This document shows, one piece after another, positions 3,020 through 18,621 of a stretch of DNA of 26,431 nt (position 1 is the first letter of the stretch; each line of letters begins with the position of its first letter). The position numbers and the translations under genes were made by a program. Location of the stretch: contig JAMYWO010000440.1 of the NCBI GenBank assembly GCA_024220525.1, forward strand, positions 1-26,431, in the 5' to 3' direction. The DNA comes from Cochliopodium minus (taxonomy: Eukaryota; Discosea; Himatismenida; Cochliopodiidae). The notes beneath the pieces are model-generated. The model saw nothing but the letters and a program-made list of their open reading frames with translations. It was not told the DNA's origin and made no database searches.

Positions 3020-4614
3020 ATGATCACAATAAAAATAAAAAAAATGAAAGAATATAACAAGCCTATTGTTGATTTTGATATATATGTGAAGAGCAATACT
3101 TCAAAGACCATCAAATGTAAGAAATGTGGCTTGATAATGGATTCATTTGGAAAATTATATTCACATGAATCGATTTGCCAAGATGGGGAGAAGAAAGAAG
3201 ATACAATTACAAACAAAAAGGTGGATAATGAGCAAACTGAAGAGATGAAATTTAAATTAAAGAAAAAGATCGAATCAGAGATAGATTTGCACGTGAAAAA
3301 CAAACAATTATCAGGATCAAGTATCTTTGATACTAAATTGACAGCCAATATCTATGATTTGGATTGGAATACAATAAAGGGTAATAAAATAAAAAAAAAG
3401 AGTTTGAACAAGATTGAAATTTATTCTTTTAATTTATGCAGATTACAAATATGCGGGAGGAAGTATGTTTAATATCACAATTATATTTCTTTTTATAATC
3501 TGAATATATTTTGATAGGTGATGGGATCTTCTTGGCCACTTTGAATAATGGAAAAGTAATTCTCAAAGGAAGCTCCAATCCTGCATGTGAATTATTTGCA
3601 AATAAATTGGCAAGACATTTTAATATACCTGTGCCAGATATGAGGGTAAAACAAATTTTTTTCAATTCTAAATTCCTCATTATATAAAATCATTATAATT
3701 TTCTCAAGGTTATAGATTATACAAAAACAGAATGGCCTATAGTAAAATCAACTTTGATCAATCAAGCCAAGAAAAGTGGCAATGATCTTGATAGAATTTT
3801 GATGGAGAAAAAATTCAACAGGGCAACATTGTTGGTGATGGAATACGTATCAGGTGTGGATCTACTTCATCTCAGTCCAAGTAGAGCATCTGAGATTTTC
3901 CAAACAAAAGAGGGGATCGAAAATCTTAAGAATATTGGAAAACTGATCGTTTTAGACTTTTTGTTGAATAATTGGGATCGTTTACCTATCATTTGGGACA
4001 ATGAAGGAAATTTTAGAAATGTCATGTTTCAAGAAAATGGAGGAGTTGTTGGAATAGATAATGTAAAATTTTTATACTTACAATTTGTTCTCTTCATTTT
4101 ATTTAAATTGTTAAAAATATTGTTTTTAGGGAGTATGTTGTATTAAAGAAGTAATTTCAAACAAACAAAATCCCAACTACAACAGATATTTCCTAAATGT
4201 TTCCAATTTCATCGAGCAACTTTGTGATTCTCCAACCATCGAGATTCCACATCTCAAAAATTCTAGAGAAATTTTAGTAATGAGCGGAAGCGCAGATTTA
4301 ACAGAGGAAGGAAATATCTGGATTCAATATGGTATTAAAACAAAAAATAATTGAAAATAAATTTTAATTTCAATCATTTAAAAGGAATACTTTTGACCCT
4401 CTCTCAGTTTTTTGAAACCAAAAAAGAAGAAATATCTGATATTAAAGATGAAGTAATAAAGTCTATAGGTGATGATTGGAATGATCTTTGGAAGATAGAT
4501 TCTTCAAAGATAGAAGTTGATTTTATCTTCAAAGTAGTAACAATATTCCAAAACAAGAGAGAAAAAATTGAAAAAGCGACAGTTATTTTCCAAAACAAAT
4601 TTAATACAAAATAA
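3020..4614 (+). CDS. Actin-fragmin-kinase-like protein kinase with N-terminal C2HC zinc finger
   Basis: The protein is 431 aa, from exons 3020-3380, 3442-3462 (21 nt), 3518-3645, 3709-4062, 4130-4331 and 4385-4614. An alternative start at 3044 removes eight residues. Residues 33-53 form C-x2-C-x12-H-x3-C (C33, C36, H49, C53), a zinc-finger pattern. From about residue 128 the sequence follows the actin-fragmin kinase catalytic fold (PF09192 type): GGSDGIFLATLNNGKVILKG (glycine-rich strand plus ATP-site lysine), LLVMEYVSG (hinge), LDFLLNNWDRLPIIWDNEG (catalytic loop, N257/D260), and GIDN (D287, metal-binding equivalent). In Physarum this family phosphorylates actin in the actin-fragmin complex, but the substrate here is unknown. 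The kelch repeats of Physarum AFK are absent. The C-terminus is uncertain: an open segment at 4675-4728 could be spliced on from a donor at 4582, giving 438 aa. The gene is divergent from the BPI-like gene and convergent with the kinase at 4927. Confidence 0.85.
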
Positions 4615-6086: not shown

Positions 6087-9000
6087 ATGTCCAATTTATT
6101 GAGCTATCCAAAGCTTATAGGATGTTCTTTATCTATTTCCAAATCTCTCCCAAGATATTCTCTTCAAGGAATAAATACAATAAAGCAAGAAAATGCAGAA
6201 AATGAATACATAGAAGAGTACAATGATTTGTTTTATAATATAGAGAAAGATATTAATAAATATCTTGAAGAGAATCCAAAATCGGTGGAAGATATGGCAG
6301 AATTTTTCACTTCTGAATCTAATATTGAAATAGAGACGAGATTGACTGATATATTGTCGAGATCCAAGAAAGGGATTAAATTAATAAAAGAGAATGTGAA
6401 TATAGATCAAATTGAAAATGAGGATACTTCAATATGCGAATATAAACAAGTTGAAGAAGAAAAAAGTAAACTTTTTCAGAATTATAATTTTAAAATATGA
6501 AATTTCATTCAATATATTCTTTAAAGATGAAGATGGTACTTCATATGAGTCATATATAAACTATTATGCAGAAGATCAATCAAGAGATGATGATTCATAC
6601 GATGTGGAAAAGAATGATATTGGGGGATATACAAATCAAGAAGATGAATCAAATGAAGATATCAAAAAAGTAACCAAAATGAATTCAATGGAAAAATATG
6701 GTATAAAAATTCTCTAAAAGTAAATATTAAAAGTATTAATTCACATAGTGAGAGGGTATAATAACCATGAAGAAGCAGATATATTTGACAAAATTGAATC
6801 TCATGAAGGAGGATACATAACTCAGTCTAATACGGAAGATGACTCACCAACATCCGGAAGTAACTCCAAAAAGAAAACAAAATCAAAAATGAAAATAAAT
6901 GTGAAATACAAAGAAGACATCGAAGAAAAGTACAAAGAAAATTCTTTTTTCACTTCATCTGGAAATGACTTTAAACAATCTTTCCAAAAAGTTTTGGACA
7001 AGAGCACGGTTGTCCCACAAAGATTTAATGAACCATTGAGTGTGTTTCATGAATGTATGAACGAACTTAGAAATAAATCCATCAAACATGAACAAAAAAC
7101 AGAAATTTATAGCAAAATATCCAAAATTTCAAACGCATTTCTACAAGATGCTTCTCATTATGGAAAAACTATCATCAGAGGTAAATATTATATTTTTTTT
7201 TTCTAAATATTTTTGATTATTTTTTATTCAGAAATGGGTGTTCCACTTGAAGAAAAAACAATTAAACCTATTAATAAGGGAGGAGTATTGGGAGGACAGA
7301 AGTGTATATTTTTTTTGAGAATTTCTTTTTAATCTAACAAAATTTTCATTAAATAATGAAGATGTTGTTGGGAACATTTTGTTCAAATTTGCAATAGACA
7401 AAAATGGAATGTTCAATGATGATAATTCAGCAAAGAAAGTAGCAGGTCATGAAATAAAATCTTTATCACAAATAATATCCCTAGGTATAGAAGGATTGAG
7501 GTAATTTAATCTCAAAGTTTTCTTCAACAAAGAGTTTAAATTTTAAAATTTTATGACAAGGTATCCTTTGATGTGTTTGATAGATTATTTAGGATACAGA
7601 CTCATAGCAATGAGTGTGCTACCAATATCAGGAGGAGAGAAATCAACACTTGTTTATGGGTATGAAAAAATTAACATGGAAATAAAATAAAGTTATTTTT
7701 TTTAGAACACAAGATGGAGGGGTTACTTACAATTTCAGCGATCCAGTAGCAAATGAGATGGCAGAGACGATAGGAACGAAATTGAACCTTAAGAAACATC
7801 AGCTCAATTATTCCGATACGTATTCAATCTTCACTCCTGCTGATTTGGAAATTCATTTTGGAACAGATGGAAATTATTACATTCTCGATTTTTCTCGTTT
7901 GTTTCCATGTGACTCTTTAACCAAAAATATCAAAGGATCGATTTTCTTCAGGTGTTTAATTTTTAAATGTTTTATTTTATTGACTTTTTATTTTTTTTTA
8001 TAGGATGTTTCGCCCTGAATTTGTTACCAAGTACGATCATCCTCTTTGTAAAATTTATTCCTTTTTTCTAAAGTTGATACTAATCAATTTTTTAAAAGGC
8101 CCTGATTCTTTTTCTGGGTTTTTGTTAAAGGAAGAACTTTCCGTTTGCAACAAAGAAATAAAAATAGCCCACAAATTTCTCCTTCAACACATCACAAATT
8201 TCTCATCGCAACTTTCAAAAGAACCTATTCCAACAAGTATCCCAGAAGAAGATAGAAATATTAAAATATCCAAATATCTAATTGACAACATCCACGAAAG
8301 AGGAATTAACGTAAAAAAAATTTTTATAATTAAAAAAAATATAAACTATTTTTTTTAGGTGAGATACATTGGAATGATTAGGTCAAATTGTAAGAGTGAA
8401 AGTTGGTCAAAGTTCCTTTTAGTTGAAGTAAAAAAAAAAAATATTTTCGATTTAAACACTCGATTTTTATTTTCAATTTTTTTTTTAGTTGGCAGGAAGA
8501 GTAATTAAAACCGAAGCAAATGAATTTTTGAGAAAAGAGCTTTCCAAGAAGAAAACAGACTATGGATTGGACAAGACTGTCAACCAAATCGTCCAATATC
8601 TAAACCTTGTTCTTGGACAAAGCAAGCAATCAGAGGAACACTGGCAAAAAATAATTTTTACGAAAATAAGGAATTATTTCGGAGAATTTCTTTTAGAAAA
8701 CGAAAAAGAAAATTTTTTAAAAGAAAAATTCCACCATGATTCAAACAAAACGAAAAGTTCTGAAATTTTCTGGTTCAAATCTTTTGTTTTGGACAGCACT
8801 AATTACAGCTTTTTCGAAGAGGATACTATCATTTTTCTTTACAAATATCTCACAGACAAGTTGCATGTTGAGTGGACTTATTCTTGTTGGGATTCTTTCT
8901 CTAAACAATCTTCTTTGTTCAAAGTACCAGAACCCTTCCGTAAAAATTTTTTTTTCATTTCTAATATTTTAAAATATATTTGATTGATTAAATTGAATAA

Positions 9001-10798
9001 TTTTTTAAAATTTTTAATATAGATCCATCAGATGTTGTTGATTTGAACCTTGGAGTGAAACACTTGTACATCTCGGAGTTCAGCTCTGGGAAAATAAAGC
9101 AACAAAGAGCCTTTACTTCAGAAAGAGAAATGGAGTTTCTGTTGCACACTCAATGCGTTAATTCTTTTTCTTCTGCGTTAAGTGGAAATCCAGGGAATGT
9201 AAAAATATTAAGAAATTTAGGTAATTTAAATTATTTAAATTTTTATTATAATTATTTTTAATTTAAATAAATAAGGAGAAATAATTTTTATTCATATTTA
9301 TTTATTTATTTTTATTTTTATTTTTATTTTTAATATAATCATTTTTTTTTTTTTATTTTTACAAGCAACATCTCACCAGTTTAAAGAAAGCCACTCTGAA
9401 GCGTTGATGTATTTTAATAGAGCTTTGGAGAGAAATCCGGAGAGCCACACCACTACCTTTAAATACGCTGTATTTTTGGACAAAAGGCTTTCTTTCAGCA
9501 AAGCAGAACACTTTTATCTCAAATCTCTCAAATTAAATCCTTTGAAATACAAATCTTTGTGTACATATGGTGATTGGGTAAAACAAAAAATTAATTTAAA
9601 AATCTGTCTTAAATCAATTTAAAATATTTTCATAAAAAAATTAACAAAAATAAATTGATAAAAAATTTAAATTTAATTAAAATTAAATTTTGATATTTTA
9701 TTTTTTGAGAATAGTTGCTTTTAAGGGAAAAATTTGATCAATCTTCTTTTCTGTTAAACATGGCTGTCAAATTCAATCCTTACCGCTTCGAAGCATACAA
9801 CAACCTGGGATGTCTGCATTTCATCAAAAAGGAGTTTAATATTTCTAAAAACCACTTCAAAACAACTCTCCAAAAGATTAAACAAACAAAAATGAAATAT
9901 TTAAAGATTGGGAAAGTCAATAAAGATTTGGAAAGATCCTTGTCTATAATTTATGATAATCTGTCACTGGTTTATTCCTTCCTTGAAAATAAGACCAAAA
10001 GTTTACACTTTTGTTCTCTTGTTTCTCATAAGAAGGAGACGAGCAAGTATTGGCTTGTTTCTGAGAGCGGGGCCAAATTAAATGAAATCAAAATGATCAT
10101 TGGTCCAAAAAAATCTTGGTAAAATTGACAAAAAAATATTAAAATAAAATAAAAAATAAAATAAAATAAATTTTTAAAATAAAATAAAAAAATAAAAATA
10201 AAAAAAAAAAATAAAATTTAAATTTAAAAATAATAAAAATGAATAAAATTTTTTTGATAGGCAATTAAAACAAGCTCCGTTCAATATCAAAGATTTTCAA
10301 TCTCCTTCTCTCAAGGAAATGGTGAAGCAAAAAGTGATCAGTGCTCACAAAGTCATCAAGGGAGACTGTATTTTAGAATTGACATACATACAAGTTTTTG
10401 AAGAAAATGATCTTGGAACCCCTTTGATAGAATTGAGTGGGTTTGCTTTCAAAGACTATGGAGAACAAAATTTTTTAAATAAGTTTATGGGAAAGAAAGT
10501 CAAAGTAGGTGTTTATGTTGGTAAAAATTTTTTTTTTCTCTAAGAATGTTAACTTTTTAAACAAAAAAAAATAAAAAAAGCTTTTTTCAAATCATTGACT
10601 TTGACATCCCACATTTATGAAGGATCTATCCAAGGATATGTGGGTCCAAAATCTAAAGAAAAGGGTACGGGATGGGAACCTATTGTCTATGTAGAATCTG
10701 TAAATACTCCGATGAACGAACTGAGAGAATATAAACACTTGATAAACTATAGAAGACAACCATATCTCAAAATAGCATTTGAACATATGAATGATTAA
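6087..10798 (+). CDS. CLU domain-TPR protein with C-terminal Ham1/ITPase-like domain
   Basis: The protein is 1202 aa from 16 exons: 6087-6465, 6527-6700, 6749-7180, 7232-7303, 7362-7500, 7561-7659, 7706-7951, 8004-8047, 8099-8310, 8359-8427, 8489-8939, 9023-9220, 9366-9577, 9715-10118, 10261-10520, 10581-10798. Residues 1-350 are acidic and unfamiliar. About 352-790 is the CLU (clustered mitochondria) domain: GNILFKFAIDKNGMF, AGHEIKSL, TLVYGTQDGGVTYNF, ADLEIHFGTDGNYYILDFSR, FRPEFV, ERGINVRYIGM, DLNLGVKHL. About 800-1010 holds TPR helices (ALMYFNRALERNPES, AVKFNPYRFEAYNNLGCLHF). About 1050-1195 aligns with the RdgB/Ham1 fold: MVKQKVISAHKVIKGDCILE, FLNKFMGKKVKVGVYVAFFK, IYEGSIQGYVGPK, GTGWEPIVYV, NYRRQPYLK. 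The family's catalytic VEDTGL and SHR positions read LELTYI and NYR, so catalysis is doubtful. CLU proteins bind mRNAs for mitochondrial proteins and control mitochondrial distribution. The standard CLU N-terminal domain is not evident. Confidence 0.88.
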
Positions 10799-13632: not shown

Positions 13633-16600
13633 ATGGATATGCAGAATGATTTAGGAGATACTTTGTTTGAAAATAATGATAATATAGATGATGATGAAAA
13701 CTTTGAAGAAGAAATGAATGATGAAAATTTTGAGGATAATCAACAACAAGGTAAACAAAATTAAATCTTCTGCAAATATTTCCCAAAAATAAATAAAAAT
13801 ATTTCATTTTTACGACATTTATACACCTAATAATTTATTATAAATCATTATCAAAATATAAATCAAAAAAAAAACCTTTATATTATTTAATATGTCAAAG
13901 ATATGAATGATGACAATGATATTGAGCAAGAAGATACATGGATTGTTATCAATGCATATTTCAAAACAAAGGGTTTGGTCAGACAGCAGTTGGATTCTTT
14001 CAATTCTTTCATTAATGATACCATTCAGGAAATTGTAGATGATTCAGGTGAGATAGAAATCAAACCAAAAACACACAAAGGATTAAATGGCGAAGTAGTA
14101 AAACATTACGTCAAATTCAGACAAACATATCTATCCAAGCCAGATACAAAAGAAGAAGAAAGTAAAATATTTCGAATTAATAAGAAAATAACATTATAAA
14201 ACAATTTAATAGAAGAAATCTCAAAAATATACTCTCAATACAATTATCCATTCAATATCTATCTACAAATAAACAAATCTTAACCATTATTATCATAGTT
14301 AATTAATTTTAAAGATAAATAATAAGAAAATTTAAAAAAATGATACAATAATACAACATATAAAAACCATAAAATAGTTAAATATGTTAAATTTGAAAGA
14401 AATAAAGTATGATATGCTCGATTTAGAAATTTTATTAACTTTTTTCATTCATTCAATAGCTAAATCGGAGATTTTATATCCTAATGCTGCAAGAACTCGT
14501 GGATTGACATATTCTTCTCCATTGAGAATAGATATCGATACTATCACTCATCGTGTAAGAGATAATCAGTATGAACCAAAAGAGGCTACCCAAAAATCCT
14601 TTTTCGGTAGAATTCCTATCATGGTTCGTTCACAATATTGTCAATTGAGTGATTGTGAAGATAAAGATTTGACAGCATTCAAAGAATGTCCATATGATCA
14701 AGGTAATTACAAATAATAAACATATTATTGACAAATATTGTAATAAAACATTTCATAAGAAAGTATATTCAATTTGATTAAAATGAAATTAACCTTTATT
14801 ATTAATCTTTAACCTATTTTTACTTAAAGGTGGTTATTTCATTATCAATGGTAGTGAGAAAGTGTTGATTGCTCAAGAAAAGATGAGTAACAACAATGTG
14901 TATGTATTTAAGAAAGTGAAAGATCCCAACTTTTCATATGTAGCAGAAGTCAGATCATGTACAGAAACAGGAAGCAAGCCAACAAGTACCTTGTATGTAA
15001 AATTAGTCAACAACACAAAAGAAAAGAAGGACAAAGCAGGAACAATACAAACAGAAATTCCTACATTGGGATCGATAGTGCCTGCCATCATCGTCTTTCG
15101 TGCTTTGGGGTTTTTGAGTGACAAAAAGATTTTGGAACACATTTTGTATAATTTCGATGACACAGAGATGGTTGAGCTTTTGAGACCTTCACTCGAGGAA
15201 GCTTTTTTCATCAATGACGAAAGACTCGCGCTTGATTTTTTGGCAAAGAGAACAAAGCTACAAGGAGAAGACAAGGAAAAGAGAATAAGACATGCCAAAG
15301 AAATTCTCCGCAGTGATTTCTTGCCTCACATTGGTATGAAGGAGTCTTGCGAAACCAAAAAAGCTTATTTCTTTGGATACATCATACACAAACTCTTGAA
15401 GACTGCTTTGGGAAGAAGACAGGTGGACGACAGAGATCACTATGGTAACAAAAGACTCGATTTGGCAGGTCCTCTTCTTGGAAACTTGTTCAGACAGTTG
15501 TTTGCCAAAGTGAAAAAGAGTGCAAAGGACATTTTAGAAAAAAGCGCCAACAAAGGAAAAGATTTGGATATCGAAACAGCTATCAAAGATAACATCATCA
15601 CAAGTGGTCTTAAATATGCATTGGCTACTGGTAATTGGACTTCAGACAGGCAACAAGGGTCCAAAGCCGGTGTCGCTCAAGTTTTGAGTAGATTGACTTT
15701 CGGTTCTACTTTGTCTCATTTGAGAAGATTGAACGCTCCTTTGCCTAGAGAAGGTAAATTGGCTGCACCCAGACAGTTACACAATACCCATTGGGGTATG
15801 GTTTGCCCAGCAGAAACACCAGAAGGAGCAGCTTGTGGTTTGATGAAAAATCTTGCTTTGATGGTAAAAAAAAAAAATGTTTTTTAAAAGAAATCTTCCT
15901 TAAATTTCTTTATTATTAGACATACATTTCTGTCGGATCAAGTTCAGAATCTGTCATCAATTTATTGGAATACTGGGGAACAGAAGCTCTCGACGAGATT
16001 TCCCCTGTGGACGTCTCAGGTGCCTACAAAGTCATCGTGAACGGTGCTTGGATCGGCATCCACAAAAACCCCAAACAACTCGTCGAAGTGTTGAAAGAGT
16101 TTAGAGCTAAGGGTGCCATCTCCTACGAAGTCTCCATCATGAGGGATATCACAGAGAAAGAGCTCAGAATTTATACAGATCCAGGTAGAACATGCAGACC
16201 TTTGTTCATTGTACAAAACCAGAAGCTTGCCATCAAGGACAATCACATCAAGGAGATCCAGAATGACCGTCTCAAGTGGGAGGATCTCGTACTCAATAGG
16301 TACGTCGAGTTCTTGGATACTATTGAGGAAGAGACTGCGATGATTGCCATGATGATTGAAGATCTCAAAGAAAACAACATTACAACATATACACATTGTG
16401 AAATTCACCCCTCTATGATTTTAGGTAATTTAATTTTTTTGGTTTTACTATTTTATTTTTTTTAATTAATTTATTTTCATTTTTCTTTACTTTTTTTAAT
16501 TTTGACTTAATTTTTAATTTATTTAGGTATTTGTGCTTCTATCATTCCTTTCCCTGATCACAACCAGTCTCCGAGAAACACTTACCAATCTGCGATGGGT

Positions 16601-18621
16601 AAACAGGCAATGGGTATCTATATCACCAACTTCCAATACAGAATGGATACCCTGGCCTTCGTCTTGTACTACCCTCAAGAGCCTTTAGTCGTCACCAAAC
16701 CAATGGACTACTTGCATTTCACCAAGTTGCCTGCAGGTATCAATGCAGTTGTAGCTATTAGTTGTTATTCAGGATATAACCAGGAAGATTCTGTCATTAT
16801 GAACCAGTCTTCAATTGATAGAGGTAAAGTTTTCAATTATTTATTTATTTTTATTTATTTATTTTACATGATTTTTGATTCATTTTTGTTTAACTTTTAA
16901 AATTTTTGTCTTTAGGTCTTTTCAGATCCATTTTTTACAGAACATACAAAGAAATCTTGGAAGATGGAGAAGAGTTTGAAAAGCCAAACAAAGATATCAC
17001 TGTAGGAATGCACGTAGGGAGCTACGACAAACTCGAAGACGATGGTTTAATCGCTCCAGGAACAAGGTTAAAAAAATAATTCAAAAAAAAACTTTTTTAA
17101 TTTTCTTAAAAATAATTTTTGATCATTTTAATTTTTAATTCTAAATAATTTATTCAAAATTTATTTTCTTGTAAATTATTTTATCGTTTTTAATTTTTAA
17201 ATAATTATTTTAATGTTCTTTAAAAATTTTTTAATTAACTTTTTTTTTGAAACAGAGTATCAGGAGATGATTTTATTGTTGGAAAAACATGTGTGAACAC
17301 ACCTACTTCAGAAGACGACCCTAGAGCCAAAAAGTACACGAGAAGAGACAGAAGTGCCCACTTGAGAAGAACCGAGACAGGTATCATCGACCAAGTGATC
17401 ATCACCACCAATGGTGACAACAAAAAGATGACCAAGATCAAAGTGAGATCTATCAGAGTTCCTCAAATTGGAGATAAGTTTTCTTCTCGTCACGGTCAAA
17501 AAGGTAATTTTATTTTTTTTATTAAATTATTTCTTAATAAAGTTTAATATTTTTTATTTTTATTTTTTATTTTTCATTTAATTCATTTAATTTATTTATT
17601 TTTTAATTTTTATTTTTACATTTTATTTTTAATTATTTTAATTTTTATTTATTTTTCTCATAGGTACTTGTGGAATGGCTTATAGAGCCGAGGATATGCC
17701 CTTCACCTTTGAAGGTATCAACCCTGACATCATCGTAAACCCTCACGCTATTCCCTCCCGTATGACCATCGGACAGTTGATTGGTAAATAAAATAAAAAT
17801 AAAAAATAAAAAATTAAAATTATTTTTACAAAAAAAATAAAAAAATATTATTACAATAAAAAAATAATAAAAATTATTATTAATACTTTTAAATTTAGAA
17901 TGTTTGCTTGGAAAAATCGCTACAAGAACAGGATCTAAGGGAGAGGCAACTGCTTTCAAAAAGGCGCCAGTGGATGAGTTGTGTAAGAACTTGCATCACG
18001 TAGGTTACCAAAGACACGGTAACGAAGTTTTGTGTAATGGTCACAACGGTCGTCCTTTGATTGCTCAGCTGTTCATTGGTCCTACTTATTACCAAAGATT
18101 GAAACACATGGTGTTTGACAAAATTCACTCTAGGTAAAAACAAAAATAAATATTTATAATTATTTCAAAATTTTTTCTTTTATTTAAATTTTTATTTTTT
18201 TATTTATTTCTTATTTAAAATTTTTTTTCAAATTTTAATTTTATTTTTTGTTTATTTCAAATTTTTTTTCAACAGAGCTCGTGGACCAACCCAAATGTTG
18301 ACTAGACAGCCACTCGAAGGTAGATCCAAAGATGGAGGTCTTCGTTTCGGAGAAATGGAACGTGATTGCATGATCTCTCACGGCGCCTCCCAATTTCTCA
18401 AAGAAAGAACTTTTGATCAATCCGATTACTACTCCGTACACGTTTGTGAGTCTTGTGGTCTCATTGCTATTGCAAAGGAGAAAGATATGTCCTTTTCTTG
18501 TACAAGTTGTAAGGTCAGTACAATCTCTCAGATTGAGATTCCTTATGCTTGCAAGCTTTTGTTCCAAGAATTGCTTTCTATGGGCATTTCTCCTAGATTG
18601 TTCACTGAGAAATCTTTTTGA
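13633..18621 (+). CDS. RPB2: RNA polymerase II second-largest subunit RPB2
   Basis: The protein is 1185 aa, close to the 1174-1224 aa of animal and yeast RPB2. The 11 exons are 13633-13750, 13901-14161, 14460-14702, 14830-15863, 15920-16424, 16527-16823, 16916-17066, 17256-17503, 17664-17783, 17899-18133, 18276-18621. Pol II rather than I or III is indicated by the start [20 protein letters not shown] and near-colinear alignment with yeast Rpb2. Key segments are [86 protein letters not shown] (acidic pair of the active centre), [14 protein letters not shown] (active-site lysines), [14 protein letters not shown], and [22 protein letters not shown]-terminal zinc site uses C1128, C1131, C1146 and C1149. 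Introns run 56-298 nt. The 298-nt intron (14162-14459) hides no missing exon, because the flanking protein is the same length as in yeast. Confidence 0.97.
14162..14459 (+). other. Long RPB2 intron 2
   Basis: This 298-nt GT-AG intron lies in RPB2 (donor GTAAAATA, acceptor TTCAATAG). It contains an ATG-initiated open stretch from 14384 in frame with the next exon. That stretch could be mistaken for the start of a separate gene, but it has no counterpart in RPB2 proteins. Confidence 0.75.

Follow-up and report, generated by a model that had tools for sequence, protein, structure and literature searches.

A gene of the amoeba Cochliopodium minus encodes a CLU-TPR protein that runs on into a C-terminal Ham1/ITPase-fold domain. 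CLU-TPR scaffolds are proteins that act on mitochondria and on mitochondrial messages. At the level of predicted genes and proteins, this fusion is shown to be real and to belong to a family of three. The Ham1 domain keeps part of the base-recognition site and may sense damaged purine nucleotides, not destroy them. The gene lies in the window, i.e. the whole stretch of 26,431 nucleotides analysed, which lies on contig C429 of the genome as searched (44.65 Mb, 598 contigs). Canonical CLU1/CLUH proteins normally end after the TPRs. The window protein resembles canonical CLU1/CluA/CLUH in having a CLU domain, an eIF3_p135-like stretch and TPRs, and differs from it, including from the gene on contig C338 that is taken as the canonical one here, in the addition of Ham1 after the TPRs. 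The CLU-TPR-Ham1 architecture was not found in an open-licence subset of the full-text literature, where the partial matches were, by their listings, a proteomics study and a paper on GSKIP, though database entries or other papers may hold it; searches on CLU-domain expansion or Naegleria gave no CLU-domain paper among the matches listed.

Hand splicing gives a single forward-strand frame (6087-10798) of 1202 codons plus stop, in 16 exons, with GT..AG borders at 15 of 15 introns. The first-pass annotation, which was made from the DNA letters, had likewise proposed 16 phase-consistent exons in one frame, and its borders at 10118/10261 and 10520/10581 coincide with those of the hand-spliced model. 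Its reading of CLU, TPR and Ham1-fold parts in one gene is borne out by Pfam matches to all three and by the same order in a paralogue on contig C11; the Ham1 domain, which it began at aa ~1045, starts earlier, near aa 1020 (nt 10045, exon 14). A codon-based gene finder, for which this gene and some non-coding DNA served as the training set, recovered all 16 exons and added two spurious ones at the 5' end. With other penalties it merged the gene with its neighbours and shortened exon 16, and because gene ends are unreliable under such settings, it is a weak check of the gene model.

Table. Features of the window, with the parts of the CLU-TPR-Ham1 gene set among its neighbours
Feature	Position	Strand	Basis
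LBP/BPI/CETP family lipid-binding protein gene	~2742-561	-	C-terminal domain E 1.8e-42
Actin-fragmin-kinase-type catalytic domain gene, upstream	3272-4581 (part scanned)	+	PF09192, E 5.7e-40
Small nucleoside-kinase-like gene (PRK/uridine kinase family)	5711-4966	-	E 3.2e-5
CLU-TPR-Ham1 gene, whole coding region, exons 1-8	6087-6465, 6527-6700, 6749-7180, 7232-7303, 7362-7500, 7561-7659, 7706-7951, 8004-8047	+	Hand splicing
CLU-TPR-Ham1 gene, whole coding region, exons 9-16	8099-8310, 8359-8427, 8489-8939, 9023-9220, 9366-9577, 9715-10118, 10261-10520, 10581-10798	+	Hand splicing
Acidic N-terminus of low complexity, with GGY at aa 159 and again at aa 205	6087..7080	+	Translation
CLU domain, aa 296-501	7081..7913	+	PF13236, 185.8 bits, cut-off 24, E 1.4e-54
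eIF3_p135-like stretch, aa 588-680	8275..8662	+	PF12807, 26.3 bits, cut-off 22, E 8.9e-6
TPR region, aa 833-966	9202..9885	+	TPR_1 and TPR_17 (Pfam)
Exon 14: TPR sequence (aa 923-946) and start of Ham1-like domain, intron-free between	9715..10118	+	Splicing, Pfam
Ham1/ITPase-fold domain, aa 1020-1202, exons 14-16, catalytic Asp replaced by Leu	10045..10798	+	PF01725, TIGR00042, residue map
Convergent neighbour of the CLU gene, encoding a TPR protein	~12800-11112	-	TPRs (profile scan)
RNA polymerase second-largest-subunit-like gene (presumed)	13930-18483	+	Translation
DEAH-helicase-like gene (presumed)	~20.3-26.1 kb	+	Translation

Within the window protein, TPR matches above cut-off (TPR_1, 37 bits, cut-off 27.8, best stretch aa 833-864; TPR_17, 30.6 bits, cut-off 24.4, best stretch aa 923-946) end at aa 946, the region being extended to aa 966 by weaker TPR models. 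The Ham1p_like alignment starts at about aa 1022 and exon 14 ends at aa 1043; because TPR sequence and Ham1 start both sit in this exon, the junction between them is independent of the intron calls. No PDB sequence match to the CLU region was found up to E 10. Among the neighbouring genes, the convergent TPR protein gene looks like that of the peroxisomal receptor PEX5, and the names given to the RNA polymerase- and DEAH-helicase-like genes are presumptive.

Ham1 is absent from the Pfam listing for the whole 1202-aa chain (E up to 10). When the C-terminal 190 aa were searched alone, Pfam gave Ham1p_like (PF01725) above its cut-off (28.1 bits, cut-off 22.5, E 2.2e-6), over profile positions 2-178 of 186. 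The domains of the two further copies described below, each alone, also exceed the cut-off (31.9 bits for that on C11 and 40.3 for that on C191), and all three domains belong to the Pfam Ham1p_like fold family. For TIGR00042, the window domain has an E of 5.2e-6, yet its 26 bits fall far below the equivalog cut-off of 145.35. When the domains of the three copies and the HAM1 proteins 2e5x, 1b78 and 4bnq were compared profile to profile, the match had a probability of 96.1 over 164 columns. Against the PDB, the window domain alone matches the pyrophosphatase 4bnq best (E 0.0016) and the bacterial protein KomB second (E 0.033); a profile of the three copies has KomB top (E 9.8e-9, 38.6 bits), followed by the ITPases 8ji1 (33.3 bits) and 4f95 (32.7 bits), i.e. 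a lead of ~5 bits over the next matches.

Searching the genome with the whole window protein gave 51 matches, including a collinear set on the minus strand of C11 that spans CLU, TPR and Ham1. In the C11 model these parts form a single chain (1083 aa), truncated at its 5' end by the locus. Its Pfam matches to CLU (E 4.6e-48), to TPRs and to Ham1p_like (E 7.7e-6, 26.4 bits) are all above cut-off. A 500-base intron limit splits this gene and a longer limit joins it with spurious last exons added, and the chain combines the joined exons from the longer limit with the last exon from the 500-base run. The count of 19 introns in the model is too high because two exons near the N-terminus, of 7 and 1 bases, are surely wrong. 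Identity between the window and C11 proteins is 33.6% across 128 aligned residues of aa 1-260, 66.1% (162/245) in the CLU part, 50.8% (133/262) in the middle, 45.7% (106/232) in the TPRs and 44.5% (81/182) in Ham1. One third of the window introns (5/15), one of them inside Ham1, are common to the C11 model, within one column and in phase. Since Ham1 and TPR parts are equally diverged and intron positions are shared, the fusion most likely predates the duplication that gave rise to the window and C11 genes.

The third copy, on C191, is in pieces. One piece, of 348 aa, has a TPR-like exon that is the counterpart of window exon 14, followed by Ham1 exons; its TPR models (E 1.4e-4 and weaker) are all below their cut-offs, and its Ham1 scores 33.5 bits in the chain. 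The Ham1 end occupies C191:68.3-70.2 kb, and C191:45.9-48 kb holds a CLU/TPR part. These pieces are 22 kb apart and in the wrong order, and the break between them corresponds to window intron 13; in addition, half of a CLU gene is cut short by the start of contig C356 (C356:1-3000). The C191 pieces and C356 may represent a single gene that the assembly has divided, and the arrangement on C191 would stem either from misassembly of low-complexity introns or from rearrangement. A genome search with the C191 domain found these three genes alone below E 0.2, with a further match on C387 at E 0.238. In a tree of 11 rows the three CLU-Ham1 domains form one clade with 100/100 support, on a branch of 2.07 changes per column.

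The genome as a whole is rich in CLU domains, with 119 HMM matches in ~62 clusters (e.g. on C338, C74, C84, C115, C17 and C65), a cluster being defined here as matches on the same contig and strand within 2.2 kb; none of 14 prokaryote control genomes has a CLU match. The best CLU match in the genome, on C338, falls outside the subfamily of the window gene, with which it has 29% identity over aa 336-520. Ham1 was not found at the scanned ends of two CLU genes outside the subfamily (C74 and C338). In C338 the C-terminal part comprises eIF3_p135 and TPRs with no Ham1, and the frame stops ~80 codons past the TPR part, the last 32 codons, checked by eye, containing no Ham1 motif. Genome-wide Ham1 searches located none near other CLU clusters; C115 holds both Ham1 and CLU, ~25 kb apart. 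Two consecutive CLU-like stretches at C115:49-56 kb on the minus strand (L039) could be a tandem or a double-CLU gene. The acidic N-termini of several CLU paralogues (L041, L044) have repeated GGY or GYxx[IVL] motifs, e.g. GGYKPI, GYAPI, GYKQI and GYMVI, and the N-terminus of the window protein has GGYTNQ and GGYITQ. Given the 34 SH2 matches in the genome, these motifs might be phosphotyrosine docking sites.

Residues of the Ham1 domains were mapped in an alignment of 11 sequences, the C115 protein left out, by human ITPA numbering, and are given in the order window/C11/C191. The catalytic Asp, D72, is replaced in every copy (L/L/T), and N16 (S/T/S), K89 (E/E/Q), S176 (N/N/N) and H177 (Y/F/F) are altered in all three as well. 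By contrast, K19, K56, E71, W151 and R178 are kept in all three, and the E44 (D/E/D) and D152 (E/D/D) positions are acidic throughout. Elsewhere, T14 reads S/T/T, K172 reads K/K/R and F149 reads T/F/F, the Thr being that of the window copy. At the SHR signature (S176-H177-R178) the copies read NYR, NFR and NFR. Two motifs singled out in the first-pass annotation fall within this map, with GTGWEPI aligning with human F149-G-W151-D152 and NYRR with human S176-H177-R178. A role on the triphosphate side is presumed for K89 and N16. In human ITPA, Glu44, Asp72, Arg178 and F149 are reported as crucial for catalysis and discrimination (PMC9016069); R178 is described as a base contact within the SHR signature, and exclusion of GTP is ascribed to F149 (PMC5075207). 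The Asp is the catalytic residue of the Maf/ITPase fold, and in related Maf enzymes its change to Ala abolishes activity (PMC3899018).

The CLU-Ham1 copies thus resemble ITPase/HAM1/RdgB proteins in fold family, as judged by profile, and in having the equivalents of W151, R178, K19 and K56. They differ in their fusion to CLU-TPR and in the absence of the catalytic Asp, of a complete SHR signature and of the G-[LF]-P-G loop; the window domain, moreover, falls under the TIGR00042 equivalog cut-off. Two other Ham1 proteins of the genome, encoded separately on C490 (73.2 bits) and C115, have the EDTSL motif and read SSR and SAR, respectively, at the SHR position. Loss of the SHR His in the CLU-Ham1 copies therefore carries little weight, since both of these proteins lack it too, and the signature discriminates poorly in this genome. 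K56 is not universal, being Ala in C490 and Gly in PH1917 and MJ0226. The SSR and SAR readings are located at L043 2208-2188 and L040 3177-3197, with EDTSL kept in both proteins; the predicted Ham1 of C490 (L043 minus strand, 2729-152) runs into a long C-terminal extension, either a fusion or a misprediction. With no catalytic Asp left in any of the three copies, the hydrolase role for which the first-pass annotation had allowed is unlikely, and on this ground the reading as an active ITPase was rejected; the sensor role that it also named may hold. The CLU-Ham1 domain is most probably not a pyrophosphatase of known mechanism.

A further comparison is with KomB of the bacterial Kongming defence system, in which binding of dITP to KomB turns on KomC, leading to NAD+ depletion by KomC (review PMC12948488). 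In the literature consulted, no Ham1-fold protein other than KomB is described as sensing nucleotides. The KomB-like sequences compared here were 8zsg, 9v0g, which we infer from its sequence to be a KomB, and three plasmid copies out of 114 matching plasmid records. In all five the catalytic Asp is replaced (H/H/H/H/Q), and the four that reach far enough have SMR instead of SHR. From these sequences a working definition of our own was drawn, i.e. catalytic Asp replaced with base-pocket Trp and Arg kept, and the CLU-Ham1 copies share this combination. The likeness to KomB thus includes the Ham1 fold, replacement of both the catalytic Asp and the SHR His, and KomB being the best PDB match of the CLU-Ham1 family profile, by a small margin. 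The differences are that KomB is a stand-alone bacterial protein with its gene beside SIR2, as opposed to a fused domain, and that it retains N16 and S176, which are changed in the CLU-Ham1 copies. KomB is closer to HAM1 enzymes such as PH1917 and 1b78 (92 bits), with 2e5x, 1v7r, 9v0g and 1b78 at ~92 bits each. The 11-row tree, the deep branches of which are poorly supported, does not place the CLU-Ham1 clade with KomB, and membership of a KomB clade was not adopted for want of such a grouping. Any parallel with KomB would be functional only.

With the C191 domain, 32 plasmid records were matched at E up to 1, 29 of them from Pantoea, the best E among the 20 listed being 8e-5. Of these best 20 of 32, five recur in the 40 rows that were listed with KomB as query, and the one overlapping region opened has a KomB-like gene beside SIR2; this ranking is biased because the collection consists of plasmids, which probably hold few chromosomal HAM1 genes. 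An alignment of the three domains gave 210 pattern-matching stretches in viral contigs and 588 in prokaryote genome contigs, none of which was confirmed as a relative, and one match in phages (E 0.3). With the PADLOC library of 2023, two of the three domains were searched, one giving no match and the other one weak methyltransferase match (E 0.033). KomB itself, by tblastn, matches 95 Pantoea plasmid records, of which one region was opened. SIR2 adjoins KomB in both annotated regions opened and adenosine deaminase is present in one of the two: the Vibrio copy is flanked by genes for adenosine deaminase and SIR2, and a Pantoea vagans plasmid (L047 3375-4726) has a KomB-SIR2 pair without the adenosine deaminase KomA alongside. 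A Novosphingobium humi plasmid (L049 ~3500-4016) has a KomB-like frame with Gln, not His, at the position of the lost Asp; no features are annotated around it in the record. A KomA-type adenosine deaminase had no match on the window's contig. Adenosine-deaminase-like and RNA-deaminase-like genes are present in the C. minus genome, so that inosine sources exist, which weakly supports a nucleotide-receptor role.

The reading preferred here, tentatively and at somewhat less than even confidence, is that of a CLU-TPR scaffold with a C-terminal Ham1 fold turned into a non-hydrolysing purine-nucleotide receptor. In its favour are the retention of W151, R178, K19, K56 and an acidic E44 position in copies that have all lost the catalytic Asp, the top place of KomB, which has lost this Asp too, among PDB matches of the family profile, and the presence in the genome of separate Ham1 proteins with EDTSL. 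Several observations count against such a receptor: with Thr in place of F149 the pocket of the window copy is imperfectly kept; a domain without N16 and K89 may fail to bind nucleotide at all; the lead of KomB in the family profile is ~5 bits, in a tree without a KomB grouping; the window domain alone has the pyrophosphatase 4bnq as its best PDB match; KomB itself is nearer to HAM1 enzymes; and the contig of the window has no KomA-type match. Nearly as likely is that the domain is a structural pseudoenzyme without nucleotide binding, serving as a dimerisation or protein-binding end-piece. Alteration of N16, D72, K89 and H177 in every copy fits this, as does the description of ITPase as a homodimer (PMC5075207), and the long branch to the clade is as expected on release from nucleotide constraint. 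Retention of W151, R178, K19, K56 and an acidic residue at E44 in all three would be unexpected had binding been abandoned, albeit the needs of the fold alone might account for some of these residues.

It is improbable that the domain is an active but altered nucleotide pyrophosphatase, using another general base or substrate. The Ham1 fold family consists mostly of enzymes, E71 and the acidic E44 position are kept, and the missing SHR His proves nothing, given its absence from the other Ham1 proteins of the genome; against this stand the replacement of D72 by L, L and T, with the equivalent Asp to Ala change abolishing Maf activity (PMC3899018), the score of 26 bits where the ITPase equivalog cut-off is 145.35, and the presence in the genome of separate Ham1 proteins with the Asp motif. 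Least probable, and discarded on the strength of the C11 paralogue and the shared exon 14, is that two neighbouring genes have been read as one. Introns 14 (142 nt) and 15 (60 nt) are predicted and the automatic finder sets gene ends unreliably here, but TPR sequence and Ham1 start lie within one exon, C11 repeats the order in a single chain with five introns in common, and in the C191 piece, too, TPR-like sequence leads into Ham1.

For the preferred receptor reading, a mechanism can be proposed in which the Ham1 domain would bind, with no hydrolysis, one of the non-canonical purine nucleotides, be it ITP, XTP or a deoxy form. Binding would then alter the CLU-TPR scaffold, much as KomB, once bound to dITP, activates its Kongming partner, and the output of the activated CLU-TPR part might, by analogy with CLU proteins, be related to RNA, ribosomes or mitochondria. 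A further-reaching proposal, which on present evidence is less likely than not, is that of a eukaryotic non-canonical purine receptor for which (d)ITP/XTP arising from deamination, stress or infection would switch a mitochondria/translation scaffold, as an independent counterpart of the KomB principle.

That CLU fusions exist in an amoeba follows from Dictyostelium CldA, which carries an extra signalling domain (PMC3085826); CldA is like the window protein in being a CLU-domain protein with such an addition, and differs in that the addition is SH2 and not Ham1. In a genome with ~62 CLU clusters, CLU would appear to serve as a scaffold of modular use. Proteins of the ITPase fold, for their part, are known for the most part as enzymes of housecleaning. 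The present family keeps part of the binding pocket, has the catalytic residue replaced in every copy found and is fused to CLU-TPR; such a eukaryotic gene family would be a candidate for nucleotide-quality sensing.
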